Assembly: GCA_030039895.1 (NCBI GenBank)
Contig: JASHUR010000315.1
Coordinates: 1-34,059 of the forward strand
Origin: Acidobacteriaceae bacterium
Lineage (GTDB): Bacteria > Acidobacteriota > Terriglobia > Terriglobales > Acidobacteriaceae
Reading direction: 5' to 3'
DNA length: 34,059 bases
Positions 5,003 through 33,129 of this stretch are shown here, piece after piece. The notes under the pieces were generated by a model. The model searched no databases and had not been told where the DNA came from. It saw only the letters and a program-made list of their open reading frames with translations. Numbering within the stretch: the stretch's first letter is position 1; each line of letters starts with the position of its first letter. The translations under genes were made by a program, and so were the position numbers.

Positions 5003-6241
5003 TTACGCAATCGATTCGCTCGTTGTCGCACCCGCATGCACCATGTCTCCGATAGCCTGTGCTGTTCGCCTCATCTCTGCATCGCTCGTCAGACAGTCCG
5101 GACACAGCCGCAGCCACTCCCCACGCGCATCACAATCCATTCCCTCGTCGGCCAGCCGATTCACCACCTCGCGCGGGTTCTTTATCCGCACCGCGAGAAA
5201 TGCGCCATGCCGCGGGTCGCCGCCTGTTACATCCTTTATGCCAGCATCGGCAAGATAACCGCGCAGAGCTTGCAGTTGCCGTAGCCCATACTCCCGCAGC
5301 CGCGGCACTCCCATCGCGAGAGTGAACTCCTGCCCGCTGCGCGCCTGGTACCAGGTCAGTACGGGCGGAGTGCCCTCCAGAAACGCGTCTCCGCCTGCTT
5401 TCAACCTGATGGCCTCGTCCCGTTCAAAGGCCATCGGCTCGGCCTTGGCAAACCATCCCGTGTCCAGCGGGCGCAACCCGCTTTCGAGCGCTGTCCGCGA
5501 GACATATAAATATCCCGCTCCCGGTCCGCCACGCAGGTATTTGTAACTGCCACCGGTCATGAAATCAGCGCCCATCGACCGCACATCCACCGGAATCACG
5601 CCGACCGCATGGTACGCATCCACGAGTAGCCGCGCTCCGTGCGCGTGGCACGCTTCAGCCAGCCGTTCCAGTCCGTGGACTACCTGCGAGGTCTGATACA
5701 TCACCTGCGAAACTACTACCAGGTCCGTACCGCGCTCGGCCTCTGCAATCAACGCCTCCACGTCAAACTCGCGCTGCGCGTCCGGCTCGACCCAGCGCAC
5801 TTCGGCCCTGCCCAGCGCAGCATATTGCTTCAAAATCACATCGGTTGAGTCGAACTCACCGCGCGTCGCTACCACGCGCGGTCTGTGGCCCAGCGCGTTC
5901 AGCACCGCCCGCAGCCCCTGTCCAGCCGCTGTTTTCGGAACCACGCAGTCCGGCCGCTCCGCTCCGATCAGCCGCGCAATCCTCCGGCGAAAGGCCTCTC
6001 GCTCGGCCAGCCAGTCATCCCAGGCCTCACCCATCTTGCTGTACCAAAGCGATGTGGCGTCGGTTACGTCCTCTGCCATCGCATCCAGCGGACGCCCCAG
6101 CGAGTGGTTCGCCAGGTACACACGGTCCGTCGCCAGCACTCGCGTGAACAGAGGCGCAATGTGCCTTGCAATCGCCTCTTCGCTCAACGGCCCCGCTCCC
6201 ATCGCCGCCACTGCCGCTTGAATTTTCTCCGCTGTACTCAC
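5003..6241 (-). CDS. kynU: Kynureninase / class V aminotransferase-like protein
   Basis: Likely GTG start at 6241 ([11 protein letters not shown]...), overlapping the upstream TDO stop as [55 protein letters not shown] (PLP-lysine region). The longer 475-aa ORF start lies inside the TDO gene. Confidence 0.8.
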
Positions 6242-7089
6242 CGCTGCTTCAACCCCGTCCGGACCGCCAGCAACTCCGGAAAGAACTCCAATTCCAGCGC
6301 TTGCCGCAAGAATCCTACGCCCGACGAACCGCCCGTCCCCGGCCGGAACCCGATGATTCGTTCCACCGTTTTCATGTGCCGGAAGCGCCACAACTGGAAG
6401 TACTCCTCCACATCCACCAGCTTCTCGCACATCTCATATGCGTCCCAGTGCTTCCGCGGACTCTCGTAGATACCTCGAAACACCTCTACCAGCGCTGCAT
6501 TCTTCTCGTGCGGCCGGCTCCAGTCCCGCTCTATGCACTCTTTTGGGACTGCCAAGCCGCGGCGCGCCAGGTGGCGCAGGAACTCGTCGTACAGGCTCGG
6601 AGCGTCCAGCGCGCTCATCAGGTCCGCGTGGATCGCTACGTCGCTCGCAAACACTTTCAGCGCGTCCCGGTTTTTGTTTCCCAGCAAAAACTCCAGCTTA
6701 CGATACTGGTACGACTGAAACCCGGATGCGTGCCCGAGCACCCCGCGGAACTCCATATACTCCGACGGCGTCAGGGTTTCCAGCACCGCCCACTGGTCGA
6801 AAAGCTGCATCTGGATCAGCTTCGCCCGCGACAGAATCTTGAAGCACGGATCAAGCTGGTCCTGCTGCACAAACCGTATCGCCGCCGTCAGCTCGTGGAT
6901 CAGCTGCTTCATCCACAGCTCCGACACCTGGTGCTGAATAATGAACAGCATCTCGTCGTGGTGCTCGGGACGCGACAACGGACGCTGCTGCGCCAGAAGT
7001 TCGGGCAGGCACAAATACCCGGCGTAACTCATCCGGTGCGAAAAATCCGTCACAATGCCCGGCTCCAGCGGGCGCTCATTCTTCTCCAT
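6238..7089 (-). CDS. kynA: Tryptophan 2,3-dioxygenase
   Basis: Motifs [87 protein letters not shown]. Confidence 0.95.
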
Positions 7090-12366: not shown

Positions 12367-14916
12367 TTAGCGCCGAAGTTCTACGATATCGGCCGCGCCC
12401 AAAGGAAGCGAAAAGGTCACACCGTCGCCCTGACGCTGCAAACTGATATTTCCGCGCGTTACGCTTACCACCTGGCGTATTCGGAAAGGGACGCGAACTC
12501 TGACCTTGATCGACGACAGGTCGCGACCAGTCCAATTAAGGAGTGTTATGGCGTCTCCCTCGGGAGATTCCAGAATCGGGGATTCGACATATGGAATGTT
12601 CACCTGGACGGGAGGCGAGACACCAGCCGAGCGAACAGGCTTCAATACCAGTTCACGAAGCGAATTGGCGGCCGCGTTATCCAACAATTCCAGATGAGGC
12701 CCCAGGGCAAGGTGAGCATAGGCGATCCCGGGAAACCAGGAGAAGGTCAGGATGCGTCCCCGGTCGACATCGTGTTGAGTGATGGCTGGCATGTGATCGT
12801 CGAAGGTCAAGAGTACGGTTCCCCCGCGTGGCGGGTCCGGCGGCTCTCCGAACACAGGCTCGCCGCCGACCGTTGCGACTTGCTTGAGCGAGAGCGCATT
12901 CCGAACATAGGCTCGCTCATGTGAGAGGCTCCCGGTCAGCAGGGTAAGGGTTTTCGCGGGCTCGTCGTACCGGTCTCCCTGGGCGGCTCCGGGCACCATG
13001 ACCAGAGTTCCTCCTGCTTTTACCCATCGCGTTACAGCACGCTGACCACTATTCGGGACATCAGGTTCAGTAACGTAAAGAACTTTGTAGTGGTCCAGGG
13101 TGGCGTCTGTAAGTTCATCTTCATCGATAAAATCAACTGGAATATCGCTCATCTCGAGAGCAAGATATTCGTCATATTCCTCGGCCATATAGTCGAGGGT
13201 TGCTGCGTTGGGGTTGTTGTTGGTAGCGCCGACAACGGCACCTCCCGGAGGAAGAGACAAACCGTCCCAGACTTCAGAACTGCGGGGCTCGAGGATTGCC
13301 ACCTGGGCCTGTGGCTTGCGCCCAGGCCACAAAATGTTTTCCGACTTTGCGATCATGCTATCGGCACGGCCCAATTGAGTGGGCACTCCGGGGACCTCCG
13401 AGTAGCAGTTCCCCGGCCAGTTGTATGCGGGGCCGAAGTTGTAATAGAAGACAGCCTTGGCGCCGTTGCCCACGAGAGCCAAAATCCGCTGCGTGAGACC
13501 GTCTGGCGGGTCGCCATCTACCCGTCCGATTACGTAGCCGCCGAATCCGAGCCCATTCTGGTAACCAATTGAGGCAAATTTGGCAGCGTAATAGGACCAC
13601 TGATAGGCCCGATTGTTAGCAAACCAATCCTCAGTCCACATCAGGTCGGCGCCATGCATTTGTCCAAACTCGAACCAGTCCGGCGCGCCCATGGCTGCGT
13701 CGGGGTTGTGAGGTGAAGGGTTGTTGGCCGCGAATCCTTCAAAATAGAACTGGTCCGCGAAATTGTTAAAGTCGCTGAACGTTTTCAGTTCAGGAGTAAA
13801 AGCTCGATGTAACTGAGCCGTGGCACTTCGCATATACTGGGCGCTCTTCCACGAGAAAAAGCGGCAGGTCCAGTAAAACAGACGCCGCCTTGATAATGGA
13901 GCGCTTGTCGAAACTCCACCGTGCCCAACAGGATAGACTTGGCTCCAGTTCGCTGCGCCCAGCATCGTCGGTGTGAGATGCTGCTGCGCCATATAGCTTC
14001 TGAATTCGTCTAGCGAGGTCGGATCTCCCTTCACAGCCTCTAGAACCATTGGAAAGTACCATCCAGGCTCGTCAGCGATCGCGATGATGGAGAAGTCTGA
14101 AGGTGAATAGCCGGCTTTAAGGTACTCGGCCGCCAGTTCTGATGCCCATTTGTCGAGAGGTTGTGTTTTGGTACCCCCGCCTAGAGCTCCGCCCGGTGGA
14201 GAATAGACGGCAAGAGCAACTCGCCCAACACCATCTTTCGTCAACATGCCCGGCAAGGGCCCCAGGGGCGGGACTAGCATTGCGGTAATACCGACCTCCG
14301 CAAGATGAGATATGCCCTGCTGCCAATCGAGAATGTCGTCATCCCCGCCGATGAATCGATCGACTATAAGAAATCGCTTGGGTCGTTGCGAAGGCGGGAT
14401 CGCAGCGCGATCAAATTCAGCCCAGTACCGTTGGTTATAACCCGCCATCGTTTCGGCCCGCGGCGCATTAGAATTCACATCACGCCAGATCATCAGGGCA
14501 AGACTGGGACCGAAAAGATCGGCGGAAAGGTTTGCTTCGCGAGCGGTTCCCGAGAAGCGGACCTGAACATTCACAGATGTTGGATCGACGACTGGAGAGA
14601 CCTGGAGCCTGATGATAGCCGGAAATCGGCGGAGGTATGAACTTGAGTAGCCGTGAAGTGCAGTCCTAACGTCAGCCGGAGTAAAGTCAAGCCACGGACT
14701 CCATGCACTGCCCTGTGACTTGACTGTTAGCTTTCCCCACTTATACGTGTACGACTGTGTCGACAGCAGGTGTCCGGCGCTCTTAATGACACGCACACGA
14801 ATGCTAAACGGCGGAATCCCGCTGGCATCAAGTGCCGGTGGGCGTTGTGCAAGTGTGCTCGCTGTGCAAGCTATAACCAGAGCGATCCAGGCACGTGCGA
14901 TCCGACGCGGGCTAAT
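12367..14916 (-). CDS. Large secreted glycosidase-like protein (TIM-barrel plus beta-galactosidase trimerisation/GATase-like region)
   Basis: 809-aa ORF from GTG 14796; 40 further in-frame codons upstream from ATT 14916-14914 encode ISPRRIARAWIALVIACTASTLAQRPPALDASGIPPFSIR (signal peptide/lipobox-like), preceded by TAGGAGG. Body contains DYMAEEYDEYLALEMSDIPVDFIDEDELTDATLDHYKVLYVTEPDVPNSGQRAVTRWVKAGGTLVMVPGA, typical of GH42-type trimerisation domains. Confidence 0.7.
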   Translation of the reverse strand: MSPRRIARAWIALVIACTASTLAQRPPALDASGIPPFSIRVRVIKSAGHLLSTQSYTYKWGKLTVKSQGSAWSPWLDFTPADVRTALHGYSSSYLRRFPAIIRLQVSPVVDPTSVNVQVRFSGTAREANLSADLFGPSLALMIWRDVNSNAPRAETMAGYNQRYWAEFDRAAIPPSQRPKRFLIVDRFIGGDDDILDWQQGISHLAEVGITAMLVPPLGPLPGMLTKDGVGRVALAVYSPPGGALGGGTKTQPLDKWASELAAEYLKAGYSPSDFSIIAIADEPGWYFPMVLEAVKGDPTSLDEFRSYMAQQHLTPTMLGAANWSQVYPVGHGGVSTSAPLSRRRLFYWTCRFFSWKSAQYMRSATAQLHRAFTPELKTFSDFNNFADQFYFEGFAANNPSPHNPDAAMGAPDWFEFGQMHGADLMWTEDWFANNRAYQWSYYAAKFASIGYQNGLGFGGYVIGRVDGDPPDGLTQRILALVGNGAKAVFYYNFGPAYNWPGNCYSEVPGVPTQLGRADSMIAKSENILWPGRKPQAQVAILEPRSSEVWDGLSLPPGGAVVGATNNNPNAATLDYMAEEYDEYLALEMSDIPVDFIDEDELTDATLDHYKVLYVTEPDVPNSGQRAVTRWVKAGGTLVMVPGAAQGDRYDEPAKTLTLLTGSLSHERAYVRNALSLKQVATVGGEPVFGEPPDPPRGGTVLLTFDDHMPAITQHDVDRGRILTFSWFPGIAYAHLALGPHLELLDNAAANSLRELVLKPVRSAGVSPPVQVNIPYVESPILESPEGDAITLLNWTGRDLSSIKVRVRVPFRIRQVVSVTRGNISLQRQGDGVTFSLPLGAADIVELRR

Positions 14917-15066
14917 GTGATTGCCTCCTAGACCGGAACATGCCGAAGACTTAAAGTGGCGTCAGATACGGGGCCGAACTGGCATCTGCGGCTGGGGTCG
15001 AGCATTTGAGTGAAGATGCGAAAGCGCTTCCCGATGCCTGAATAGATGATTTCGAACTGCAAGAGG

Positions 15067-16476
15067 CTACAAGTGGACGATCTTGTCCCTGCCTTCGCGG
15101 ACTTTGCCCGTGGCGTTGCGTGTGTCAATTACCAGAAGGCTTTCTTTCACAATCAACGAGTAGTCATAGCTGCTGTGGTCAGTAACAATCAGGACGCAGT
15201 CGAATTGCTTCAGGCTGTCACTGCCCAAGGGAGCTGAGGTAAGGCGAAGGTCGTACTTTCGCATTTTTGCCAGATAAGGAACGTAAGGGTCGTTATATTC
15301 GACTGTCGCGCCTCTCTTCTGCAGGATGTCGATGATCCTCAGCGCCGGCGATTCCCGAGTGTCGTCAACATCCCTCTTGTAGGCGACGCCAAGAATCAAA
15401 ATCCGGGATCGCGAAAGTGGTTTCCCTCTTTGATCGAGAGCGGCAGCCACTCCTTCAACTACATGATCAGGCATCGCAGTGTTAATTTCGCCAGCAAGCT
15501 CGATAAATCGCGTCGTGAATTCAAACTCCTTAGCCTTCCATGAGAGATAAAAGGGATCGACGGGAATGCAATGGCCGCCCAGTCCGGGTCCTGGATAAAA
15601 GGCATTAAAACCAAATGGTTTGGTCTTTGCGGCTTCGATGACTTCCCAGAGGTTGATACCTGCGCGCATGCAAAGCAGCTTCAACTCATTGACCAGAGCA
15701 ATGTTCACGCAGCGATAGGTGTTCTCCAGAATCTTTGTCATCTCTGCAACTCGAGATCCGGACACGAGAACGGTGACATGAAACACTTGCGCATAGAGCG
15801 CCTGAGCCGCCCGAGCACTGGTGCCGTTGACGCCACCTACCACCTTGGGGATCATCGATCTCTCAGTTTGTTTGTTACCGGGATCTTCTCGCTCCGGCGA
15901 AAAAGCCAGAAAGAAGTCCGATTCGACTTCGGATTCGTTCTGAACTTCATTTCCAATAACCGAATACGCCGCGGGCGGGCATTTCAGCTCGGAACGCTCC
16001 AGGATGGGCAACATTACTTCCTCAGTCGTTCCCGGATAGGTCGTACTTTCCAGCACGACAAGCTGGCCTGGGCGTAAAACGACGCTGATCGCCTCCGCAG
16101 TATCCCGGATGAAGGACAAATCTGGTTCCCGGTGGGCATCCAGGGGAGTTGGGACGCAGACGACAACCACATCCATCTCGCGAAGCTTAGCGAAGTACCC
16201 CGTGGGTTGGAACCGCTTTTGCTCGATCTGCTTGATGATCAGCGCATCCGGAATATGCCCAATGTAACTCGCACCCTGCTGAAGGCTCTGAACCTTTGCG
16301 TCATCGACGTCGAATCCTGTCGTTGAGAATCCGTTTTCGGCGAAGGCAAGGGCAAGAGGCAGGCCAACATACCCCAGACCGATAATTCCAACCTTCGCTT
16401 GTTTGTTCAGGATTCTCTCGCACAGTCGATCGGCTGAACTTTCTTCGTTTCGATACAAGGATTGAGTACTGCTCAT
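15067..16476 (-). CDS. Nucleotide-sugar dehydrogenase, UDP-N-acetyl-D-glucosamine/mannosamine 6-dehydrogenase (WbpA/TviB/WecC type)
   Basis: KVGIIGLGYVGLPLALAFAENGF, VPTPLD, LESTTYPGTTEEV, FSPEREDPGN, NTYRCVNIALVNEL, FYPGPGLGGHCIPVDPFYLSWKA. Start at MSSTQ (16476) has AAGGAG SD; ORF track start is 16515. Confidence 0.93.
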   Translation of the reverse strand: MSSTQSLYRNEESSADRLCERILNKQAKVGIIGLGYVGLPLALAFAENGFSTTGFDVDDAKVQSLQQGASYIGHIPDALIIKQIEQKRFQPTGYFAKLREMDVVVVCVPTPLDAHREPDLSFIRDTAEAISVVLRPGQLVVLESTTYPGTTEEVMLPILERSELKCPPAAYSVIGNEVQNESEVESDFFLAFSPEREDPGNKQTERSMIPKVVGGVNGTSARAAQALYAQVFHVTVLVSGSRVAEMTKILENTYRCVNIALVNELKLLCMRAGINLWEVIEAAKTKPFGFNAFYPGPGLGGHCIPVDPFYLSWKAKEFEFTTRFIELAGEINTAMPDHVVEGVAAALDQRGKPLSRSRILILGVAYKRDVDDTRESPALRIIDILQKRGATVEYNDPYVPYLAKMRKYDLRLTSAPLGSDSLKQFDCVLIVTDHSSYDYSLIVKESLLVIDTRNATGKVREGRDKIVHL

Positions 16477-16533
16477 GTATTCTCCTTTTTGGATGCTCAA
16501 CAGAAAACTCGACAATTCAAAACGGATTCAGCT

Positions 16534-18255
16534 TCAGATCCATCGGACTGCAATTCCCAGAGCGCGGACCTTCTCTTCTGGAATTTTGCCGCTGGATACC
16601 AGAACTTCATTGACAACATGTTTGCTGGTAACCTTTCGAAGGTCGCTGGGGTTGTAAATTGATACTCCGTGCAGGCGTCGCCCGGCCTTGCCCCAATCAT
16701 CGTCAAGAAAGCCCACGGGAAAATGCGTGCCTTGGTTCAGAATTTGCCTCACCAGAAGGTCGCCCTTCACGCCGGCACCGTAGATCAGAACTCGGCTTGC
16801 CGCAGCCCGTGCCGCCCGTTGACCGTGCAGCCAGGCCCCGAAGAGTCTTAACGCAACGCGGCTGCCGCCGACGAAAAGTAGTAACAGAATCGCGTTTAGA
16901 ATCAGAACGGCAATTGACAGACGAGGATGGGGATGCGCCACTAGAATGGCCGCCGTCGCCGCAGCCGAGGCAAGTACGACGCACTGGACGATGACAATCA
17001 CATCCTCAATCCCGACGTAACGCCACATCCCGCGATAGATCCCGCCGAGTAGGAAGGCTATCATCTCGACTCCGAGTATGAGGGGCGCGAAACGCTGGAA
17101 GATCAGTAATTGCTGGCCTGGAATTATGCCTCCGAAACGAAGCAGAAACGCGCCGTAATATGCCAGCGTCATCAGCACCAGATCAAAGAGAACCTCCAGG
17201 ATGCGCCGCTTATAGGAAAATTTCATCAGGAATGAGAAGGCATTGCTTTGGGGAACGGTGCCGTCTTCATAAGAACGAAGCAAGCCCAGGTGAAGGGCAA
17301 AGAAAAGTACCACCAAGGCGAAGCACGGCACGATGAGATAAAGAACCTCCGCATGCAAGTACCGTAAGGTAAAAGCGATCCCTCCGGAGACAGCAGTGAG
17401 GCCATACATCAATATCACAGCACGCCGTTCTGAGAGCCCGGTGGCCACCAGGCGATGTGAGACATGATCCCTCCCACCCTGCGAGATCCTTCGCCCGTGA
17501 AGGATTCGAGTAATTGTCACGAGGGAGGTATCCACAATCGGCACCAGCATGATCAGCACAGGGGTCAACAATACGGCCACTAGTCCACGAGATCGGCCCC
17601 AATTGCTCAGCAGCGCTATTCCACCCAGCATGAATCCCAGGAAGAGCGATCCACAGTCCCCCATGAAGATCGAGGCTGGAGAAAAATTGAATACTAGAAA
17701 ACCTCCAATCGCACATGCCAAGACGAATGAGACAGCGACAGCCGCGTCCTGCCCGCTCGCCAGGAAATTCGCACCCAGGAAAATGCAGGCCAGCGCCGCA
17801 ACTCCCCCGGCCAAACCATCCATATTGTCGAGCAGGTTCACAGCGTTCGTGATTCCGACCATCCAGAAAAGAGTGATCAGGTCGTTGACAATTGCGAAAG
17901 AAGTCCAAGGCAGCACCAGCCCGGCCAGCGGCAGCACGGAAGCTGCCGCAACTTGCATTACCAACTTGGTCTGCGGCTTCAGAGTTCGAAGGTCATCCAC
18001 GAGCCCGATGACAAACATGCCCGTCGCCGCGCCCGCGAGTGGCCAGAATCCCGGAACTGAGGGGTGAAGCACCAGAACACCAACGGCAAACGCAGTAAAG
18101 ATCCCAATCCCGCCAAGAAGCGCGGTTGGTTTGCGGTTCCAGCGGTCAGGCCGAGGCATAGCCACTACGCCCCATCGTCGCGCCAGTTTTCCTACCAAAC
18201 TGGTTGCGACGACGGAGGCAGCCAACACGATGATCAACGCAATTTCAATTGTCAT
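16534..18255 (-). CDS. Fused WecA/MraY-type polyprenyl-phosphate sugar-1-phosphate transferase and FlaA1/CapD-like TM-plus-Rossmann region
   Basis: N-terminal half: MPRPDRWNRKPTALLGGIGIF, GLVDDLRTLKPQTKL, NAVNLLDNMDGLAGGVA, FNFSPASIFMGDCGSLFLGFMLG, GGRDHVSHRL. C-terminal half: YKRRILEVLFDLVLMTLAYYGAFLLRF...GIYRGMWRYVGIEDV...ASRVLIYGAGVKGDLLVRQIL...FLDDDWGKAGRRLHGV. Start probably MTIEIAL (18255); ORF track 18315. Confidence 0.88.
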   Translation of the reverse strand: MTIEIALIIVLAASVVATSLVGKLARRWGVVAMPRPDRWNRKPTALLGGIGIFTAFAVGVLVLHPSVPGFWPLAGAATGMFVIGLVDDLRTLKPQTKLVMQVAAASVLPLAGLVLPWTSFAIVNDLITLFWMVGITNAVNLLDNMDGLAGGVAALACIFLGANFLASGQDAAVAVSFVLACAIGGFLVFNFSPASIFMGDCGSLFLGFMLGGIALLSNWGRSRGLVAVLLTPVLIMLVPIVDTSLVTITRILHGRRISQGGRDHVSHRLVATGLSERRAVILMYGLTAVSGGIAFTLRYLHAEVLYLIVPCFALVVLFFALHLGLLRSYEDGTVPQSNAFSFLMKFSYKRRILEVLFDLVLMTLAYYGAFLLRFGGIIPGQQLLIFQRFAPLILGVEMIAFLLGGIYRGMWRYVGIEDVIVIVQCVVLASAAATAAILVAHPHPRLSIAVLILNAILLLLFVGGSRVALRLFGAWLHGQRAARAAASRVLIYGAGVKGDLLVRQILNQGTHFPVGFLDDDWGKAGRRLHGVSIYNPSDLRKVTSKHVVNEVLVSSGKIPEEKVRALGIAVRWI

Positions 18256-18403
18256 TTTGGGGGGCCTAAAGACTACGGGGGGAATTTTCGGGCATGCGTT
18301 GGGAGAAGCCGGCAATCAGACAGCTGCAATCGGCGAGCTGGGCTGTTGCTGCTCGGACCAATCAATGGCCTTCCACAGACCGCTCTGAACATCAGCCAAT
18401 AAT

Positions 18404-18547
18404 TCATGCCTCACGTACGATGTGCTGTCGAAATATTCGCCAGGGAATGCTTGACATCATCTGGGCGAGCGTTCCCGACCTGTACCTGAGGCGGAGGTTG
18501 TCACCAATTTTGTCTGCCACAAGCTCATAGACACGATTGAGCGTCAT
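18404..18547 (-). CDS. Candidate small ORF (47 aa), not in the ORF track
   Basis: MTLNRVYELVADKIGDNLRLRYRSGTLAQMMSSIPWRIFRQHIVREA; starts 8 nt after the epimerase stop in an otherwise unexplained intergenic gap; weak SD. Confidence 0.3.
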   Translation of the reverse strand: MTLNRVYELVADKIGDNLRLRYRSGTLAQMMSSIPWRIFRQHIVREA

Positions 18548-18555
18548 TATGGTTC

Positions 18556-19602
18556 TCAAATGACCGCGGCTATCTGCCAATCCCCCTTCACTTCCTGTAC
18601 AAGGGTGGACTCGTCGGATGCAATAGTCGCCTGGTCCGCCGCAGCCGTTCTCAGGTGCGAGATCACGTCCTTCAGCGTATCCTCCAGCGTGTAACGCGGG
18701 ACAAACCCGGTGAGGGCGTGCAATTTCGAGGTGTCGGGAACTCGGCGGAGCATATCCTCGAATCCTTCTTCGTAGGCTTCTTTATAGGGAATCTTCACAA
18801 TTCGTGATGCCGATCCGGTCATTGCCCTCACCTTTTCGGCCAAGTCCTGAATCGTAATTTCTTCCGTGTTGCCGATGTTGTAGACCTCGCCGACTGCCTG
18901 AGATTTCGCCATGAGCTGAGTGAGTGCCCTGACTGCGTCGGCCACATGGAGAAAGCAGCGGCGCTGAGTGCCATCGCCATAGACCGTGATGTCCTCCTGT
19001 TTGAGTGCCTGGCGAACAAAGTTGGGGACCACCATGCCGTAGCGTCCGGTCTGCCGTGGGCCTACAGTGTTGAAAAGGCGAACCACAGTGGTCGGCACGC
19101 GCTTCTCTTTCCAGTACGCCAGCGCCAGGAATTCATCCAGAGCCTTGGAACAGGCATAGCTCCAGCGGCCTTTGCTGGAGGGTCCCATCAACAAATCGTC
19201 ATCTTCCTGGAACGGCATTTGAGTGCGCTTGCCATACACCTCGGAAGTTGACGTCACCAGCACACGTTTCTTCTTTTTCGCCGCCAGATTCAAAATGAGT
19301 TCCGTCGCGCGAACGTTGGTTTCGATCGTGCGCACCGGGCTCTCTACAATCAGCCGCACGCCCACTGCCGCGGCAAGATGAAAGACCACATCGCACTCAT
19401 CCACGAGTTCTGCCGTCACCTGACGGTTCTCAACGCTATCCAGGAAGTACGAGAACCGCTTGTGGGCTTTGAGGGGCCGGATATTTTCAATTGAACCGGT
19501 TGATAAGTCGTCAATCACGAATACTTCGTCATTGTGCGCAAGGTAGTGTTCGGCCAGGTGGGACCCAATAAATCCGGCTCCGCCCGTAATAAGGACCTTC
19601 AT
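18556..19602 (-). CDS. NAD-dependent epimerase/dehydratase (extended SDR, NDP-sugar)
   Basis: MKVLITGGAGFIGSHLAEHYL, VFHLAAAVGVRLIVESPVRTIETNV, TSTSEVYG, YACSKALDE (YxxxK), VVRLFNTVGPRQTGRYGMVVPNFV; AAGGAGGAG SD. Confidence 0.94.
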   Translation of the reverse strand: MKVLITGGAGFIGSHLAEHYLAHNDEVFVIDDLSTGSIENIRPLKAHKRFSYFLDSVENRQVTAELVDECDVVFHLAAAVGVRLIVESPVRTIETNVRATELILNLAAKKKKRVLVTSTSEVYGKRTQMPFQEDDDLLMGPSSKGRWSYACSKALDEFLALAYWKEKRVPTTVVRLFNTVGPRQTGRYGMVVPNFVRQALKQEDITVYGDGTQRRCFLHVADAVRALTQLMAKSQAVGEVYNIGNTEEITIQDLAEKVRAMTGSASRIVKIPYKEAYEEGFEDMLRRVPDTSKLHALTGFVPRYTLEDTLKDVISHLRTAAADQATIASDESTLVQEVKGDWQIAAVI

Positions 19603-19623
19603 GGAGTATCTCCTCCTTAGTTA

Positions 19624-20814
19624 TTAGTTATCCGTCAATCGCCCGTTTCTGTGATCGAGTACAGACACATATACCTTTTCGATCTCTTCCACCAGTCGTT
19701 CTTTGGAGAAATTCTGTTCGGCAAAGTAGCTTGCTGCCTGGCCCATCCGGGCTCGGCGCTGCGGTTCGTTCGACAGCCAGCGCAAGGCATCTGCAAAAAC
19801 TTCTGGAGTACGTCTCGTTACCAACACTCCGTTATCGAAGACTTGATAACCAGGATGCTCATCAGGCTGACCTGACATAAGATCAGCAACACCTCCAACA
19901 TCCGGAAGAATTACGGCGCAGCCTGCGGCCATGGCCTCTATAGCGGCGACTGGTGTGCCTTCATTCTTTGAAGTCAGTATGAGGACATCCGTCTGCCGAT
20001 AGATGGAGCGCATGTCCCGCTGCCAGCCAATAAGCTGCAGTCGTTCTTCGAGGCTGAGACGGCATGTCTCAGCCTCTACCTCTGGGCGAAGCTCCCCATC
20101 CCCAACCATCAGAAATGTTGCCGCCGGGTTCGTACCTGCGCAAAGCGCTGCGATCTTCGGATACATGAGCGGCTCTTTCACTCCAGTCAATCGTCCCGCC
20201 CAGGTAACAACAAGGCGATTGTCCACACTCTTTTCTAAAACGCGCGCACGCCCGAGTTCGAGAAATTGGGACAGGTCAAAACCGAGGCGGACCGTGGAAA
20301 TTCGTTCCAGTTCCGCAATCTTGAAACGGCCCGACAGGTCCTGACGTTGTTTGGCGCTGATAGCGATAATGCGCGCAGTTCCTCGTGCAAGAAGGCGTTC
20401 GATGAGAAGGTAGACTGCGGACTTTCGCCGCGAAAAATAGCCCTCGAAAATGTTTCCGTGGTAGGTGTGCACACAAGGCGTACCTGAAGCAAAGGCAGCA
20501 AGCCGGCCTACGGCCCCAGCCTTCGCGGTGTGAGTATGAAGAATATCCGGCCGCTCATGCTTGAGCCAGCGATAAATGAGCCAGAAGGCCCGGATGTCGT
20601 TAAAGGGAGAAACCTCACGCGACAGCCAGGGAATGCGAACTACGTTAACGCGCATCTCATCCGCAAGGTATTCCATGCTGCCTTCGGATTCGGGCACATT
20701 GCCAACAAGCAGACTCGTTGTGTGGCCGGCATCTGCCAGTTCGCGGGTAAGCAGGACAGCTTGGATAGCTGGCCCGCCTATATTCAGCCGAGCAATTGCG
20801 CGGGCGATTTTCAT
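19624..20814 (-). CDS. Family 4 glycosyltransferase
   Basis: MKIARAIARLNIGGPAIQAVLLTREL, DILHTHTAKAGAVGRLAA, VTWAGRLTGVKEP, FLMVGDGELRPEVE, TSKNEGTPVAAIEAMAAGCAVILPDVGGVADLM. Confidence 0.93.
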   Translation of the reverse strand: MKIARAIARLNIGGPAIQAVLLTRELADAGHTTSLLVGNVPESEGSMEYLADEMRVNVVRIPWLSREVSPFNDIRAFWLIYRWLKHERPDILHTHTAKAGAVGRLAAFASGTPCVHTYHGNIFEGYFSRRKSAVYLLIERLLARGTARIIAISAKQRQDLSGRFKIAELERISTVRLGFDLSQFLELGRARVLEKSVDNRLVVTWAGRLTGVKEPLMYPKIAALCAGTNPAATFLMVGDGELRPEVEAETCRLSLEERLQLIGWQRDMRSIYRQTDVLILTSKNEGTPVAAIEAMAAGCAVILPDVGGVADLMSGQPDEHPGYQVFDNGVLVTRRTPEVFADALRWLSNEPQRRARMGQAASYFAEQNFSKERLVEEIEKVYVSVLDHRNGRLTDN

Positions 20815-20881
20815 GCTTATGCGAGTGATTTATGGGGATCACAAATGGCAGGTGCATCGAACGCTCTTGCCGAAGACGATG

Positions 20882-22012
20882 TCACGATGATTTGCGAGGC
20901 TCTGTAGCGCCGTCGGACATACATTTTGTCGCAGAGGCAAGCACGTTGTAGACGCGCGGGACCTGGACCTTAGCACAGTACCAGGTCTCGACCGTATTAC
21001 GACCTTCCTGCCCGAGACGCCGCCGCAGCTCCGCAGAATTGATCAGCAGAGTTAATTTCATCACCCACTCATCCTCAGAGGCCGCTAGGAAACCGTTCAC
21101 GCCATCTCGGACGAGTTGAGCATTCATACCGACGGGCGAGCACACTACGGGGACCCCCACGCCCATATACTGGAGGGCCTTGCACCCACACTTGCCACGT
21201 CCCCAACTGTCATCCGGTACAGGCATCAGACCTGCCCACGCTCCGCGGAGGTCTGATGCCTCAGTTTCCGGCTGCCAAGGCACAGTTTCCACGTCGATCC
21301 CGGGAAGAGAAATTCGTGGCGCGCCAATCACACGAAGCCGGAAATCGCAGTGCTTCCGGAGGCGCACCAAAGCGCCGCACAGGCTTTCAAGGTACGGTGC
21401 TGTGGTCGGGCTTCCTGTCCATACGAGTTGCGGCCTAGGGCTCTCCTGTAATGGCTGCCTCGGCTTGTACTTATCTGTGTCAATCGTTGTCGGCACTACT
21501 GTTACATGGTGGTTGTATCGCGAGGCATATTCCGCCAGGAAATCGTTTCCGGCCATTACGTGCGCTGCTAGCATGCATGCTGTCGCTGTCTTGCCTGGGA
21601 ACTTCAGGAACGCGAAGGCCCGGTTGGCGTCACTAGCATTCGGAAGAAAGATCGCATCATCGAAATCGAATATATAAGGAACTCTCTTGAGTCTTATCCA
21701 ACGCTCGAATAAGGCAGGACCGAGCAGGGCGGTCTCTCGCTGTACATACACCAGATCAAATTCCCTAACGCGCAGAAGATGCTTTGCTCGCCGCAGCAGC
21801 GCCTTGACAATCAATGTTGTCTTTTTGCCGTACCTTTGCGGCTGGTAAAGAATTGAGTCCAGATCAGGCGATGTGAAAGGCTCAAATTCAAGCCGTACGC
21901 CCAAGGATCGAAGTCCGGGCGCCCATTGTTCGATTCGAAAGCGCTGCCCGGGTGACCGATCCAATGGAGCGAGGCATAGAACAAGCACGCGCATGTCGGT
22001 ATGACGTTTCAT
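20882..22012 (-). CDS. GT4-like glycosyltransferase
   Basis: MRVLVLCLAPLDRSPGQRFRIEQWAPGL, PYIFDFDDAIFLPN, VWTGSPTTAPYL, PVPDDSWGRGKCGCKALQYMGVGVPVVCSPVGMNAQLVRDGVNGFLA. Start is 22012 (MKRHT) or 21994 (MRVLV); ORF track 22039. Confidence 0.85.
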   Translation of the reverse strand: MKRHTDMRVLVLCLAPLDRSPGQRFRIEQWAPGLRSLGVRLEFEPFTSPDLDSILYQPQRYGKKTTLIVKALLRRAKHLLRVREFDLVYVQRETALLGPALFERWIRLKRVPYIFDFDDAIFLPNASDANRAFAFLKFPGKTATACMLAAHVMAGNDFLAEYASRYNHHVTVVPTTIDTDKYKPRQPLQESPRPQLVWTGSPTTAPYLESLCGALVRLRKHCDFRLRVIGAPRISLPGIDVETVPWQPETEASDLRGAWAGLMPVPDDSWGRGKCGCKALQYMGVGVPVVCSPVGMNAQLVRDGVNGFLAASEDEWVMKLTLLINSAELRRRLGQEGRNTVETWYCAKVQVPRVYNVLASATKCMSDGATEPRKSS

Positions 22013-22176
22013 GAGAAGTTTGCCCCTCTCCGGGCACATTTAAAGCGCAGCCGACACAGCGGACACCGATCCATGTCTAAATTTGGGATGTCATTCCTTA
22101 CAAGAATGCGAGCAGAACCCCCGGTTTGCAACTGATGCTCCAGAGAAGTTATTCCTTCGATCGACTTCCCATCAAC

Positions 22177-23028
22177 TCATTCCGTACGCTTCAGTCCAAC
22201 GGCACACCAATAGGGTGGGGCCTCGCAAAACTGGACATTTTCAAAGCCCGCCGTGCTGAACATATCTGCTATCTGGGCACGCGTGAATCTTTGCTCAAGT
22301 CGCGTGCCCAGCCGATCCAAAGCGTCAGTGCGCATTACATAAAGTGAGTGGTGCTGGTAATAGGAGAGTGGCCAACTTTCAGTCTTTACCCTGACGCTGG
22401 AAAGAAGCGCGCCTATGCGTGCCAAGGGCCAGTAGAATACGAGCGCCGCCACTTCCGCGATTATGACTTTAAGATGTTGAGGCAGGCGGGATACTATCAG
22501 TCTCGCGATATCACTTAGGCGCCAAATCCAGCGGTACCATGCCGGTCGGTTGTCAAATGCGTAGTAGATATACACCAGCAGAGGGGCCCCAGGCTTCAGT
22601 TTTTTGGCAATTGCATGTATGCCTGCCTCAGGATCGGGAATGTGATGGAGCACGCCCAGTGAGTAGGCGAAGTCGAGGCTCTCATCGTCAAAAGGTAACT
22701 TGCCAATACTGCAACAGTGAAACCGCACGTTTCTGTGGCCTGATAGGTTCGTTTGCGCGACTTCGAGGGCCTCAGAACTCGCATCAACGAGGAGGAGTTC
22801 TCTTACCAATGGAGCTACTAATCTTGCCCACCTCCCACTCCCGCAACCGATGTCAGCACCGCAGCCTCCATCCTCAGGCAGCGACTCCCAAGGAAATATG
22901 GCAAAGTACTGTCCAAAGATCTCTTCAGCTTCCTTCTCTTTAAGGCTAGCCTGTCCGAAGCGGCTCCACTCTTTGCCAAACCCAGCTACAGTTTCAGCGT
23001 CAACATTATTGCTGTGTGGCGACATCAT
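22177..23028 (-). CDS. Class I SAM-dependent methyltransferase
   Basis: GADIGCGSGRWARLVAPLV, FDDESLDFAYSLGVLHHIPDPEAGI; ATGATG start overlaps the upstream TGA stop. Longer ORF start (23244) lies inside the upstream gene. Confidence 0.88.
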   Translation of the reverse strand: MMSPHSNNVDAETVAGFGKEWSRFGQASLKEKEAEEIFGQYFAIFPWESLPEDGGCGADIGCGSGRWARLVAPLVRELLLVDASSEALEVAQTNLSGHRNVRFHCCSIGKLPFDDESLDFAYSLGVLHHIPDPEAGIHAIAKKLKPGAPLLVYIYYAFDNRPAWYRWIWRLSDIARLIVSRLPQHLKVIIAEVAALVFYWPLARIGALLSSVRVKTESWPLSYYQHHSLYVMRTDALDRLGTRLEQRFTRAQIADMFSTAGFENVQFCEAPPYWCAVGLKRTE

Positions 23029-24341
23029 GCTAGGCTTCCGGCGCTGTTGGCGTCCAAATACGATCGCCCGCGCCGTGTTCCAAACAGCAAGGCGAGCAAG
23101 ACGATAATGGGCATGACTTCCAGGCGTTCGCGAACCGCCATCCCAAGGTTTCCGAAGCCGCCGAAACCATAGAGCACGGCCCAGCACATGACATAGGCCA
23201 GCGCCCAGGAGACCACAGGATCCCGAAGGCGGCGAAGGCTCCAATGTCTGGCCGCAAAGATCGCTAGCATTAGCAGTACTGAGCCCTCCAGTGCGGCCAT
23301 TACCGTAAATGCATTATGAATGTCCCACGGCAGCGGCCGGAAGAGCACGGTAAAAACGCCCCAAGGCAAGAACAGAATCATCGAACCGACTGAGTGAAAA
23401 CCGTGGAAGGCCTGGCCGCTGCCTCCGTATGCTAAATCACCAACCGTGGCATTCACTTCTGGAAGGACACTCGATAGACCATCGGAGAGGAATTGCCGGT
23501 GAAAGAGGGTAAAGGCGTAGACCATACCGGCTACACCTCCAGTCACACTCAGGACACGCTGGATGGGATGGCGCAAGCGCGGCGTCACCACAAACAATAG
23601 TGGAGCTACCATGATTACGCCATACCATTCGCGCACGAAGATGGCGATCAAGATTCCCCAAGCCGCCGGCAAGGCATAGCCGATTCGATTTGTGCGAAGC
23701 CAACCTGCTGCGCCCAGGGCATACAGGCCAGCGCCAAGGAAGATCACAGGATCTTTTCCCAGAATGGAGGACCAGAACAATACGGTCGGAGTAAAACCAA
23801 CCAGATAGAGGAGCCAGGGCTTCCGGCTGGAGAGATAATGGCAGGCAGCACGATAGAAGCAGAAACATCCCCACAAACCAATGAACGAGTATACGATCTT
23901 CATGGCATGGTAACTTGAACCCGTCATGTAACCCAGAAGAGCGGAAAATCGCAGGATAGTTTCTGTACCGTTTCCCAGTACCGGCAGGAGTGAAGCGTGC
24001 TGACCCCAAACACCCCACCAGAAATACGTGTAGGCATCCAGCCCGTAGTGCCATTCGTAGATCAGCATCGCTCCCAGATCCACTGCTATTTTCACGAGCC
24101 AGACGTGCACCAACGGAATCCGGTCATCTAATGGCAGCACACATAATAACGCTGTAAGTCCGAGTGCCCATATCCAGCCGCGGACGTAATCGCCAGCCAT
24201 GTGCGGCTGGGGGATATTTCGCCCAAACAACCCCATGTGCCCGAGCAACCAAACGGCGCCGAGACTAGTTACGATACTGGCGATGAGCACACCGCTGACC
24301 TGCAATCCGGCCACCAACGTGCCGCTTCTCGCTTCATTCAT
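23025..24341 (-). CDS. Polytopic membrane protein, candidate Wzy-like polysaccharide polymerase
   Basis: 438 aa, many hydrophobic helices, long charged loop region (YEWHYGLDAYTYFWWG..., TPTVLFWSSILGKDPVIFLGAGLYALG); position in an EPS locus between a methyltransferase and asnB. Confidence 0.55.
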   Translation of the reverse strand: MNEARSGTLVAGLQVSGVLIASIVTSLGAVWLLGHMGLFGRNIPQPHMAGDYVRGWIWALGLTALLCVLPLDDRIPLVHVWLVKIAVDLGAMLIYEWHYGLDAYTYFWWGVWGQHASLLPVLGNGTETILRFSALLGYMTGSSYHAMKIVYSFIGLWGCFCFYRAACHYLSSRKPWLLYLVGFTPTVLFWSSILGKDPVIFLGAGLYALGAAGWLRTNRIGYALPAAWGILIAIFVREWYGVIMVAPLLFVVTPRLRHPIQRVLSVTGGVAGMVYAFTLFHRQFLSDGLSSVLPEVNATVGDLAYGGSGQAFHGFHSVGSMILFLPWGVFTVLFRPLPWDIHNAFTVMAALEGSVLLMLAIFAARHWSLRRLRDPVVSWALAYVMCWAVLYGFGGFGNLGMAVRERLEVMPIIVLLALLFGTRRGRSYLDANSAGSLA

Positions 24342-24350
24342 ATCGTCTAC

Positions 24351-26297
24351 TTAGACCTGCACTGCTTGCCCACGATATTGCTGGGAATGCTTTATCAGCC
24401 GAGGAGGTTCGGCAGCTGCTTGCCTTCTGTGCCACGCCTGGAACATGAGCACAGCCCAAAGCCGATGGTGATTTGCCTGCTTACCAGCGCGAAACTCTGA
24501 CCACTCGCTGCGGATAGCCTCAGGGCAAAGGAAGTCCTGTTTCCGAAGGACCTCAGCGCTGAGTAGACTTTCCGCCCACTCTTCCAGTGGACCCCGTAAC
24601 CACGCTGCAAGCGGGATTGCAAATCCGGCCTTTGGTCTTTCCACCAAGTCGGCAGGAACATGCTTATAGAGAACCTGCCGCAGCAGCCACTTCGTGCACT
24701 TTCCGCGGATCTTCATTTTGAGCGGCAGAGACGCTACGAATGCAATGAGTTTGTCATCCAGCAATGGGACACGGGCCTCCAAGCTCACTGCCATGCTGGC
24801 GCGGTCTACTTTCGTCAGGATGTCATCCGGTAAGTAAGTGAGCATATCGAGACGGAGGAGATCGGCTACCGCCTGCGCAGATTGCTTCCCCGCGGGTTCC
24901 GCTGCTATCGGGTGCGGCCTTCCGCCTGCCTGGAAACGGGTGCGGCAAAGCCCCCAGTAAATCTCGGCCAAGGAAGAGGCCTGTAACGCGTTGGCGCCTT
25001 TCATGGCCTTATCTGCCGCCAGCCCGTCCCAGCCACATCGCCTCACGACTTTGAGGGATCCCGTCAGTGCGCCTGATAGCGGTACCCTGACTGCCATCGG
25101 AATGAACTTCACTGCACGCCAGATCTTGGGTGCGTAAAGGTAGCGGTTGTACCCTCCGAAAAGCTCATCGCCTCCGTCGCCCGACAAAGCCACGGTGACC
25201 TGTGACCGGGTCAACTGTGAAATCAGGAATGTAGGTATCTGCGAGGAGTCGGCAAAAGGTTCGTCGTAAATCTCCGGCAGTTTCGGAATCACAGCAAGAG
25301 CATCCTCTGGAGACACTCTCATTTCGGTGTGGTCCGTTCCCAGATGATGCGCGACTTCCCGCGCAAAGATCGACTCATCGAACCCCTTCTCGGCAAAGCC
25401 GATGGAGAATGTTTTCACGCGGCCACGCGCCTTTGCGCACATCATAGCCACCACTGCGGAGGAATCGATCCCCCCTGAAAGAAGCGCTCCCAAGGGAACA
25501 TCGGACACCATGTGCCGCTCAACCGCCGACTCAAGCACATTCTCTAACTTTTCGATGGCCTCCTGGTCGCAGCCAGTCCATGGACTGGCTGCAAAAGCCG
25601 AAGCGAGATCCCAATACCGTTGGGGTGCACCAGGATCTTTTCCAGCACGAACTTGCAACGTCGTGCCCGGCTGAAGCTTTCGAATCCCCTCGTAGATACT
25701 TAACGGCGTCGGAACATAACCAAAATCCAGATAGAACTCAACTGCTTCATGGTCAATCCGGCTTTCAAAGCCCGGGTACTGCTTGAGGGCGGATAACTCC
25801 GAGCCAAAGAGAAATGTGCTTCCGCTCCATCCATAGTAGAGAGGCTTAATGCCGACCCGGTCACGGGTAAGATGGAGTGTCCTTTCTTCTCGATCCCAAA
25901 GCGCATATGCAAACATGCCTTGTATGCGAACAAGCGCCTCACTCGCACCCCACTCTACGGCGCTTGCAAGAATGACTTCCGTATCTGTCCCTGTGCGAAA
26001 TGTGTGCCCCAGCCCTTCCAGCCGCGCTTGCAGTTCCCGAAAGTTATAGATCTCCCCGTTAAAGACGACCACGTAGCGTCCATCGGCGGAAACCATCGGT
26101 TGATGCCCGCGTGGCGAGACATCGAGAATGGCCAGCCGCCGGAAGCCCATCGCGATTCCGGCTCGCTCATCCACCCACGTTCCGCCGTCATCTGGGCCGC
26201 GATGATGCAAAGCCTGCGCCATCCACCGAACGACCTCTTCGGGGTTGTCAATACTGCATTCACCGTGATGCGACAAAAACCCTGCAATCCCGCACAT
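24351..26297 (-). CDS. asnB: Glutamine-hydrolysing asparagine synthase-type amidotransferase
   Basis: MCGIAGFLSHHGE (Cys2 nucleophile), HHRGPDDGGTW, VVFNGEIYNFRELQ, LFGSELSALKQYP, LGALLSGGIDSSAVVAMM (PP-loop), VALSGDGGDELFGGYNRY, VDRASMAVSLEARVPLLD. Confidence 0.93.
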   Translation of the reverse strand: MCGIAGFLSHHGECSIDNPEEVVRWMAQALHHRGPDDGGTWVDERAGIAMGFRRLAILDVSPRGHQPMVSADGRYVVVFNGEIYNFRELQARLEGLGHTFRTGTDTEVILASAVEWGASEALVRIQGMFAYALWDREERTLHLTRDRVGIKPLYYGWSGSTFLFGSELSALKQYPGFESRIDHEAVEFYLDFGYVPTPLSIYEGIRKLQPGTTLQVRAGKDPGAPQRYWDLASAFAASPWTGCDQEAIEKLENVLESAVERHMVSDVPLGALLSGGIDSSAVVAMMCAKARGRVKTFSIGFAEKGFDESIFAREVAHHLGTDHTEMRVSPEDALAVIPKLPEIYDEPFADSSQIPTFLISQLTRSQVTVALSGDGGDELFGGYNRYLYAPKIWRAVKFIPMAVRVPLSGALTGSLKVVRRCGWDGLAADKAMKGANALQASSLAEIYWGLCRTRFQAGGRPHPIAAEPAGKQSAQAVADLLRLDMLTYLPDDILTKVDRASMAVSLEARVPLLDDKLIAFVASLPLKMKIRGKCTKWLLRQVLYKHVPADLVERPKAGFAIPLAAWLRGPLEEWAESLLSAEVLRKQDFLCPEAIRSEWSEFRAGKQANHHRLWAVLMFQAWHRRQAAAEPPRLIKHSQQYRGQAVQV

Positions 26298-26310
26298 GAT
26301 TATGCTTTGA

Positions 26311-27585
26311 TTACCTCAGCGAGCTACATGCGTCTTTGTCTAATTTAGTAAGCTCGAGTTCCTCTACCGTCCCATCCAGAACACGATATATCCTTCTGTA
26401 GGAAGCCACCCCTCGTTCCAGCGCGAAGTGACGTTGTGCGACTTCAACGCAGCGTGTCCTGAGTCCCTCCTCCGCGCTGAGCCTGAGTAGTTCATCGACA
26501 GCCGCCATCCAAGCCTCTGGCGAAAATTCACTCATCACTACTCCAACTCGATCCCTGGAGACAACGGCATCCATGTCGCCCACGCCGGCGTTCACCAGGC
26601 AAGGAATGCCGCAGCCCAGAAACTCGCCCAACCGTGTTGGCGCCGAGCTCTTCTTCGAAAATGTGGGCTTGATGAAGAAGGCCGTGGCATCCATACAATG
26701 GATATATTCGGGAATCTCGCGGTAATCTGCGGAGTACAGTCTCACGCTGTCCATAGGCACGCCAACTGCTCTCAGCCTTCCTTGGATATATTCATGCCCG
26801 CCTCGGTTCACAATCAGCAGCCTGGCATCCGGCCGCGCTTTCTGCAGCTCCTTAAAGCATTCCAGGACTTCGTCAAACAGATAAAATGTTCCGACTGAAC
26901 CAACATATCCAAGCACGAACCCCTGGCGCTCGCGGCCGCCGCAGTAACTGGCCAGGCGGAACAGCTCCAGGTCCGTGCAGGTTGGAATTACCTCAAACCT
27001 GACCTCGCGCCTACGAAGGTAGGGGAATTTCCTCATTTCCTTCACGCCAGCTTGCGTAAGCGAAACCACCACATCAGCCTCAAGCAACAGCTTCTTCTCA
27101 AGCCGCTTCGCGATTCTGTACACGACCGATCCATTCCGCCACGCACCCGCGTCCACTTTTTCATCCGGCCAGAACCCGCGCATGTCAAAAATGAACCTTG
27201 CTCCCGTGACACTCTTGAGAGCAAGTCCGATCGCCCCAGCCACGTATCCTCGTACGTGCACAATCCCTGGCTTCTGCCGCAAGGCCGCCCCAATGCCTCG
27301 TATCACGCCGTGGACAATATCAAACGCCGTCGCCGGAACGCTTGGCCGCTTGTGGTAACGTAGCGGAATCCATTCGATTCCTGCCTTGCTCAACTGCTCC
27401 TGCAACACTCTGCGCCGCACGCAATCGGCCAAGTCTCCCGGCTTCTCAAAGCTCAGAATAGTGATGGCAAACTCGCCAGCCAGCCCGCACAGATAGGGCA
27501 GCACCTGCGATTGCCCTAACGGTTCCAGCAACCCGTCATACGTAATGTAGAAAACCGATGACCGCGGCAAAGAAGGATCCTTCAT
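26311..27585 (-). CDS. Family 4 glycosyltransferase
   Basis: MKDPSLPRSSVFYITYDGLLEPLGQSQVLPYL, ARFIFDMRGFWPDEKVDAGAW, VLGYVGSVGTFYLFDEVLECF, KKSSAPTRLGEFLGCGIPCLVNAGVGDMD; ATGA overlap with upstream stop at 27582. ORF track start is 27783. Confidence 0.88.
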   Translation of the reverse strand: MKDPSLPRSSVFYITYDGLLEPLGQSQVLPYLCGLAGEFAITILSFEKPGDLADCVRRRVLQEQLSKAGIEWIPLRYHKRPSVPATAFDIVHGVIRGIGAALRQKPGIVHVRGYVAGAIGLALKSVTGARFIFDMRGFWPDEKVDAGAWRNGSVVYRIAKRLEKKLLLEADVVVSLTQAGVKEMRKFPYLRRREVRFEVIPTCTDLELFRLASYCGGRERQGFVLGYVGSVGTFYLFDEVLECFKELQKARPDARLLIVNRGGHEYIQGRLRAVGVPMDSVRLYSADYREIPEYIHCMDATAFFIKPTFSKKSSAPTRLGEFLGCGIPCLVNAGVGDMDAVVSRDRVGVVMSEFSPEAWMAAVDELLRLSAEEGLRTRCVEVAQRHFALERGVASYRRIYRVLDGTVEELELTKLDKDACSSLR

Positions 27586-29741
27586 TGCTTCGCCCGTCGC
27601 TCGACAAGCCGATCGTTCAGCCGCAGTGCAATTCCAGCCGGCAGCGCCGCCAGCCACAGTGCCCGCGCCCGCATCGAACCGACTTCTCCAATTTGCGTTC
27701 TTGCCGAAATTCCCTGCATCCAGGAAAACCGAATGTAGTTGGCGGCTGCCCGGTAGAATCGAACCGGCGCGTACGAAAACCAACCGATCTGGTGCCTAAA
27801 CAGGCTCAAGTGCGCGGCCCTGATTCCCGGCGCGTGCTTCAGTCCGGCGCTGGCGTTCACGCCGCACGACTGATGTCCCTGCACATCCGTCCTCTCGCCT
27901 GTATGGACCTTTAGCATTCTGCGGTTGACATGCCTTTGCAGGTACGACGCTGCTAGACGATTGATCACGGTGGTCTCGGGAAGATAGTTGCAATATCCGG
28001 CGATCAGCTCAAAGGGGTATTCCCTGATGATTTCTGTTCTGTAACACTGCCATGAGTCCTGAAATCGCTTCAGGCGGTAAGTTACTGCCAAGTGACTGCA
28101 GTCGAGCGGTGACATCGGCAAGTCCGGTCCATAGGGCGCCCCGTTTTGATCCATTGCTAGCACCGTGACCCCCGAGAATCGGTCTCGCTCTTTCGCAGGA
28201 ATGTTTTCCCAATGTTCCTTGAAACTCGACAGCGCATCAGCAACACACTCATCGTCGGAGTCAAGGCACACAAAAAATTCACCCCGAGCCAGTTCCAACG
28301 CCCGATTCCACGCCGCCGCCTTACCCGCGTTCTCTTGCCAGACATAGCGGATCGGGAAATTCGCGTTATGCTGCCAGATCTCGATCACATCGCGCGTACT
28401 ATCAGTTGAGCCGTCGTCCACAACCAACCACTCAAAGTCTCGCAATGTTTGGCGGCACAGGCTTTCATAAGGCCGTCGCAGCGTCCCGGCCCGGTTGTAG
28501 GTCGGCGTAACAACGGTAAACAATGGAGCTTTGTCAGCATCGGTCTCAACCCTCTCCGGAATGCTTTCAGATGGACTGAGTCCAGTACTGACGGAAGCAT
28601 GTTGCATTGTTGCTGATTCGTCAGCACAAATTGCCCGCATCAGCTCGTAATGCCCCCTGCACATCTGTTCAAGCGAATACTGGTTTTCGACTCGAGTTCG
28701 TGCATCTCTGGCAATCGCGCGGTATCGGCTTGCATCGCAAACAAGTAGTGCTGTCTGGACCGCTAGTTCTCTGGCATCCTTCGGAGGCACCAGAACCCCG
28801 CAACCGCCCGTCAGCAAGTCGCGTATCCCACGAACGTCAAACCCCACCACCGGCACCCCGGAAGCCATCGCCTCCGCGCAGGCTAGACCAAAGCCTTCGC
28901 ATTCACTTGTATGCCACAACACGGTCGCTTGACGCAGGTATTCCTCAGGCCGGGGTACCGATCCCCAGAACCTCACGTCATCATTCCATCCTTTCGCTCC
29001 CGCGACAGACGTCAATTCGTCCCGCATGGGCCCGTCTCCGACGAACCACAGCCGGGCACTCGGGAACTTCTTCTTCAGGATGGCAAAACTCTCCAGCGCA
29101 TGCAGTGGACCTTTTTGTGAAATCAACCTTCCGAGAAAGCCCACGATCACATCGTCTGTCGGGACGTGCTCTTCGAATGTGAATCGCTCCGTGTCCACAC
29201 CGTTCGGAATCACCACAATCTCCTCGCGAGCCAATCCGAGCCCCCTGGCTGCATCGTCGGCGAGCGAAGGTGATACAGCAGCTACCCGTGCCCGCAATAT
29301 GCGGCGAGCCCAGCGCTGTAATTCGCGGGACATTTTCCGCCGGACTGTCGCTGCGTCCCAGCACACGTCGTGCCCGTGCAAAACCCATAGCGTGGGAGCG
29401 GAAATTCTTGCCAGCGCAGCCACGATTGCTGTTTTCGGGGAATGTATTGCCACTACATCGGGCCGCAAGCGCGCAACAGTGCGTCGCAGCCGCCACGCAG
29501 CCATTGGCACCGACCAAGGCCAGCGAAATTCGTCCGCACTGAACAACGGCTGCCACCCAACGCCTCGGTACGGGCCATCGTCAAGTATGCGTTCGTCGCG
29601 TAGCGTAACAATGCGAGCCTCGCAACCTTCGCCATGCCCAGCCCGCGCAAGCTCCAGAACCACGCGTTCAGCCCCTGCCAATTGCAGGCTCTCAACCAGA
29701 AGAACAATTCGCATTTCCACGCCAGTCGTTGCACTGCTCAA
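27582..29741 (-). CDS. Bifunctional glycosyltransferase: GT4 (N-terminal) fused to GT2 (C-terminal)
   Basis: N-half MRIVLLVESLQLAGAERVVLELARAG, VIPNGVDTERF, VGFLGRLISQKGPLHALESF, TSECEGFGLACAEAMASGVPVVGFDVRGIRDLL; C-half FTVVTPTYNRAGTLRRPYESLCRQTLRDFEWLVVDDGSTDSTRDVIE, LARGEFFVCLDSDDE. Confidence 0.92.
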   Translation of the reverse strand: MSSATTGVEMRIVLLVESLQLAGAERVVLELARAGHGEGCEARIVTLRDERILDDGPYRGVGWQPLFSADEFRWPWSVPMAAWRLRRTVARLRPDVVAIHSPKTAIVAALARISAPTLWVLHGHDVCWDAATVRRKMSRELQRWARRILRARVAAVSPSLADDAARGLGLAREEIVVIPNGVDTERFTFEEHVPTDDVIVGFLGRLISQKGPLHALESFAILKKKFPSARLWFVGDGPMRDELTSVAGAKGWNDDVRFWGSVPRPEEYLRQATVLWHTSECEGFGLACAEAMASGVPVVGFDVRGIRDLLTGGCGVLVPPKDARELAVQTALLVCDASRYRAIARDARTRVENQYSLEQMCRGHYELMRAICADESATMQHASVSTGLSPSESIPERVETDADKAPLFTVVTPTYNRAGTLRRPYESLCRQTLRDFEWLVVDDGSTDSTRDVIEIWQHNANFPIRYVWQENAGKAAAWNRALELARGEFFVCLDSDDECVADALSSFKEHWENIPAKERDRFSGVTVLAMDQNGAPYGPDLPMSPLDCSHLAVTYRLKRFQDSWQCYRTEIIREYPFELIAGYCNYLPETTVINRLAASYLQRHVNRRMLKVHTGERTDVQGHQSCGVNASAGLKHAPGIRAAHLSLFRHQIGWFSYAPVRFYRAAANYIRFSWMQGISARTQIGEVGSMRARALWLAALPAGIALRLNDRLVERRAKQ

Positions 29742-30805: not shown

Positions 30806-30836
30806 TTTCGCCTTGGTTGGGGCGTCGATGCGGCCG

Positions 30837-33091: not shown

Positions 33092-33129
33092 CAGTATCTC
33101 TCATACGCCAGAACCTACTCTTACTCTTA

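Follow-up and report, generated by a model that had tools for sequence, protein, structure and literature searches.

An Acidobacteriaceae bacterium probably uses a genuine, lineage-specific AUU start codon for a predicted exported, GH42-like glycosidase with low expression. The gene lies on the minus strand of the window, the whole stretch of 34,059 nucleotides that was analysed. For this gene an earlier note had left two options: either an ATT codon is used as start, which is known mainly from infC-type autoregulation, or an ATG has mutated and export of the enzyme is lost or reduced. Use of the ATT emerges as the best reading from the Shine-Dalgarno (SD) sequence, the signal peptide, the homologues and the predicted fold, which together stop short of proof.

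Read from the ATT (14914..14916), the ORF (12367..14916) comprises 849 codons and a stop, within an open frame of 864 codons that is free of internal stops. Upstream, the frame is bounded by a TGA (14962..14964), and the 15 codons between this TGA and the ATT read CGC CAC TTT AAG TCT TCG GCA TGT TCC GGT CTA GGA GGC AAT CAC. From the ATT onward the codons are ATT AGC CCG CGT CGG ATC and so forth, and the forty in-frame codons up to the first canonical start, a GTG at 14794..14796 (codon 41), were correctly read as SPRRIARAWIALVIACTASTLAQ. The minus-strand sequence bore out that no ATG, GTG or TTG occurs in frame between the TGA and this GTG. Letter for letter, the ATT was also found 7 nt after TAGGAGG, which begins at 14930, ends at 14924, contains the SD sequence AGGAGG (14924..14929) and is separated from the ATT by the spacer CAATCAC. 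The sequence preceding the GTG, CCGCCGTTTAGCATTCGT, contains no SD-like run, in line with the lack of an obvious ribosome binding site that had been reported for it. An out-of-frame mini-ORF (ATG to TAG, 14912..14941, minus strand, MFRSRRQSH), the ATG of which is not preceded by an SD, shares the last T of the ATT with its TAG and would be relevant only in case of a frameshift or coupled reinitiation. RNA structure around the ATT was not stronger than in shuffled sequences (z 0.18 and -1.08), and a promoter and terminator scan of positions 14780-15250 gave no match.

The background frequency of this arrangement was determined in 140 contigs of the same genome (1.12 Mb including the window, 954 long ORFs). 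Near the 5' ends of these ORFs, AGGAGG stood 5-9 nt ahead of a non-canonical codon in 77 of 63,034 cases (0.12%) and ahead of an ATG in 1.1%, and the glycosidase gene was the sole long ORF combining AGGAGG, an ATT and the absence of a nearby canonical start. Statistics on the distance to the first start were of limited use, because their tail is contaminated by spurious ORFs. With AGGAGG at 7 nt, the gene has the strong SD at functional spacing that is expected of AUU-initiated genes. Since this SD and the onset of the signal peptide coincide at one and the same codon, initiation very probably takes place at 14916-14914.

The signal peptide is predicted at residues 1-24 (ISPRRIARAWIALVIACTASTLAQ; 14845..14916, minus strand), both from the hydrophobicity profile and from a helix spanning residues 3-24 in the AlphaFold model. 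A simple profile supports the earlier reading of an export signal encoded from the ATT, showing the Sec (SPase I) features of a basic n-region, a hydrophobic h-region and a small-x-small cleavage site: the hydrophobic 9-mer has a mean KD of 2.69, with three Arg residues upstream of it and small-x-small sites downstream. The homologues have similar profile values, and an equally good or better profile was found in only 0.1% of stop-free 40-codon stretches. VIAC at residues 14-17 does fit the lipobox pattern [LVI][ASTVI][GAS]C, as had been noted, but most homologues are missing the Cys at this site, so that a lipobox in the N-terminus is weakly supported by the sequence.

Searches of more than 1,000 genomes yielded eight full-length homologues with 34-41% identity, one of which (L008) comes from the same phylum and the others from genomes reached via a Verrucomicrobia record; L007 and L010 are the same gene. 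In the full-length alignment the N-terminus of all eight has a hydrophobic segment, after which comes the strand F.(I/V)R.RV or a similar form of it, and Arg40 and Val43 are invariant among the nine aligned sequences. The GTG directly follows Arg40, within the first beta-strand of the model (residues 37-46). The earlier note would have given up its proposal had homologues lacked a signal peptide and begun at the GTG, which is the case for none of the eight. From the alignment, the predicted fold and the SD statistics we conclude with good confidence that the 40-codon extension upstream of the GTG is real coding sequence. A cytoplasmic enzyme truly starting at this GTG is barely credible: it is the sole canonical start in the ORF and a likely choice of gene callers, but it is not preceded by an SD, would bisect strand 37-46 and would lose both the family-invariant Arg40 and the export segment that every homologue possesses.

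The ATT thus marks the N-terminus as defined by homology, where no canonical start is present, while the codon itself is not conserved. The homologues start at ATG and, in one case, at GTG. Among eight congeners no close orthologue was found, the nearest relative being a 43% identical fragment from the same family (Acidobacteriaceae) with its 5' end cut. As the homologues are distant, with ATG or GTG starts, and no orthologue above 43% identity was found, phylogeny lends the ATT codon no support. A non-canonical start conserved across the glycosidase family was considered, because three homologues (L009, L011 and L136) seemed to be start-less near the signal peptide, and was rejected, as these have longer N-regions and an upstream ATG, in two of the three with a good SD. 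Neither do these data support infC-type autoregulation, of which an ATT shared with the homologues and a product that is IF3 would be the marks; the product here is a GH42-like glycosidase.

The assignment of this product as a glycosidase-like protein is supported by its predicted fold, which is GH42/GH164/GH35-like (clan GH-A). The AlphaFold model (pLDDT 77, pTM 0.80) contains the barrel and trimerisation-like domain of GH42-like enzymes, and over its whole length Foldseek matched it to GH42 beta-galactosidases (E 3.6e-21, TM about 0.5-0.6), with further matches to a beta-1,2-glucosyltransferase, GH164 beta-mannosidases and exo-beta-D-glucosaminidases. Conversely, in Pfam the match to the GH42 trimerisation domain (Glyco_hydro_42M), at 22.0 bits, remained below the cut-off of 25.8 and the GH42 catalytic domain gave no match; profiles of DUF4350 and exo-beta-D-glucosaminidase were also matched below threshold. 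Because the cut-off was missed and the fold matched, we call the protein GH42-like by fold and not a GH42 member, and no curated family model above cut-off exists for its family. The whole-length fold is shared with Gan42B (5dfa/4oif), the GH164 enzyme Bs164 and exo-beta-D-glucosaminidases, to which the identity is only 10-15%, whereas the protein described here additionally possesses a beta domain at its N-terminus and a signal peptide. Every family-invariant column of the alignment is retained, including E283, following strand 275-282, and E429, in strand 425-430, which from their position are candidates for the catalytic pair; with both of these Glu residues intact, the gene is unlike a pseudogene. 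One Verrucomicrobia genome (G447; L009, L010) contains two close paralogues of this family and four others that are more distant.

The draft genome consists of 407 contigs and is 76% complete. Within it, the glycosidase gene follows a nucleotide-sugar dehydrogenase gene and adjoins a polysaccharide gene cluster (15067-34059, minus strand), in which we recognised by eye the nucleotide-sugar dehydrogenase, an epimerase, several glycosyltransferases, a WecA-like transferase fused to a second membrane/NAD domain, and asparagine synthase-like, flippase-like and polysaccharide export proteins. Elsewhere in the window (5003-7089), adjoining genes resemble, also by eye, kynureninase and tryptophan 2,3-dioxygenase. 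The codon-usage score of the glycosidase gene, 0.119, is low for this genome, a score above 0.12 being taken as that of a typical gene. Together with the sporadic occurrence of the gene, absent in the eight congeners, and its nearest full homologues in Verrucomicrobia, this suggests horizontal acquisition. No relative was found in viral and plasmid collections.

Start codons of this type are already known in bacteria, so that the glycosidase ATT is uncommon but not new in kind. In E. coli, infC and pcnB are AUU-initiated (PMC9410913; pcnB also via a paper title cited in PMC13009471), and with these genes the glycosidase gene would share the AUU start and the low, IF3-sensitive initiation expected from it; infC differs in that its product is IF3 and its rare start serves autoregulation, whereas the glycosidase has no known link to IF3. 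In S. aureus, cvfC1 has an AUU start with an extended SD and an output of about 10% of that of AUG in poor medium, and ccpN has an AUA start (PMC13009471). Both combine a non-canonical start with an adjoining strong SD, as found here, but they were mapped by ribosome profiling and are conserved in the genus (cvfC1) or between genera (ccpN), while the glycosidase ATT is known from sequence alone. Streptomyces sigR, likewise a non-infC gene with a non-canonical start overlooked by start prediction, differs in codon (GTC), in function and in the experimental demonstration of its repression by IF3 (PMC5472188). As infC was not found in the 76% complete draft itself, infC of ten relatives (L123-L132) was used as a control. 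All ten start at ATC with a GGAG-type or similar SD ahead, and none has a conserved ATG, GTG or TTG at this point, which indicates that ribosomes of this clade are able to start at AUH codons.

In the reading that we prefer, AGGAGG at its 7-nt spacing would set the initiator tRNA over the AUU at 14916, and the protein would begin with fMet. Initiation would be inefficient, by analogy on the order of 10% of that at AUG, so that little enzyme would be made, all of it carrying the export signal. The codon would have changed from ATG to ATT in this lineage, a change tolerated owing to the strong SD and to low expression being enough. The second option of the earlier note, a mutated ATG, taken as giving lower expression, fits with this reading and comes close to it.

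The strongest competitor, though an unlikely one, is that the draft assembly contains a consensus error or a strain mixture and that the true codon is an ATG, which differs in one base (14914) and forms an ordinary start with its SD. The SD spacing is exactly as expected for an ATG, homologues of the same architecture have ATG or GTG as start, the draft genome is fragmented, and a single base change would suffice. Moreover, true switches from AUG to AUU are very rare, with 1 among 61,358 ancestral AUG starts (PMC5622118). Against this, the 849-codon frame is otherwise intact, and no obvious frameshift is seen in the neighbouring genes of the window. Short-read consensus errors typically occur at about 1e-5 per base or lower, which makes an error at one given codon no likelier than a true rare start.

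Less probable again, and doubtful, is that the AUU start was selected as a means of expression control, the strong SD with a weak codon tying export of the glycosidase to the IF3 level or the growth state. If so, a cell-surface glycosidase of a polysaccharide cluster would be regulated in this way, outside infC and regulators. We consider it improbable that the gene is decaying, having recently lost its ATG and the useful amounts of its product with the frame still unbroken. Its absence in the eight congeners and its low codon-usage score do point to a gene that was probably acquired and is possibly dispensable, but 849 codons without stop or frameshift, the conservation of all family-invariant columns with E283 and E429, and the strong SD that has been kept argue against decay. 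Very improbable, finally, is a one-base indel, either an error or true, masking a real start at ATG 14941, in which case the product would begin with MFRSRRQSH-ISPRRIARAW... and have a long basic N-region. This ATG does lie 25 nt upstream of the ATT, one frame off, and long N-regions occur in L009, L011 and L136, but it is not preceded by an SD, the AGGAGG 7 nt ahead of the ATT would have to be a coincidence of 0.12%, and short-read assemblies contain fewer indels than substitutions.

If the ATT start of the glycosidase is real, the gene joins the very few AUU-start genes other than infC, here with a secreted enzyme as product. Gene calling limited to ATG, GTG and TTG would then render an exported protein as a truncated cytoplasmic one, and annotation limited to canonical starts would likewise misplace infC in the sampled relatives. 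Alignment of homologues against the first canonical start offers a general route to such cases.
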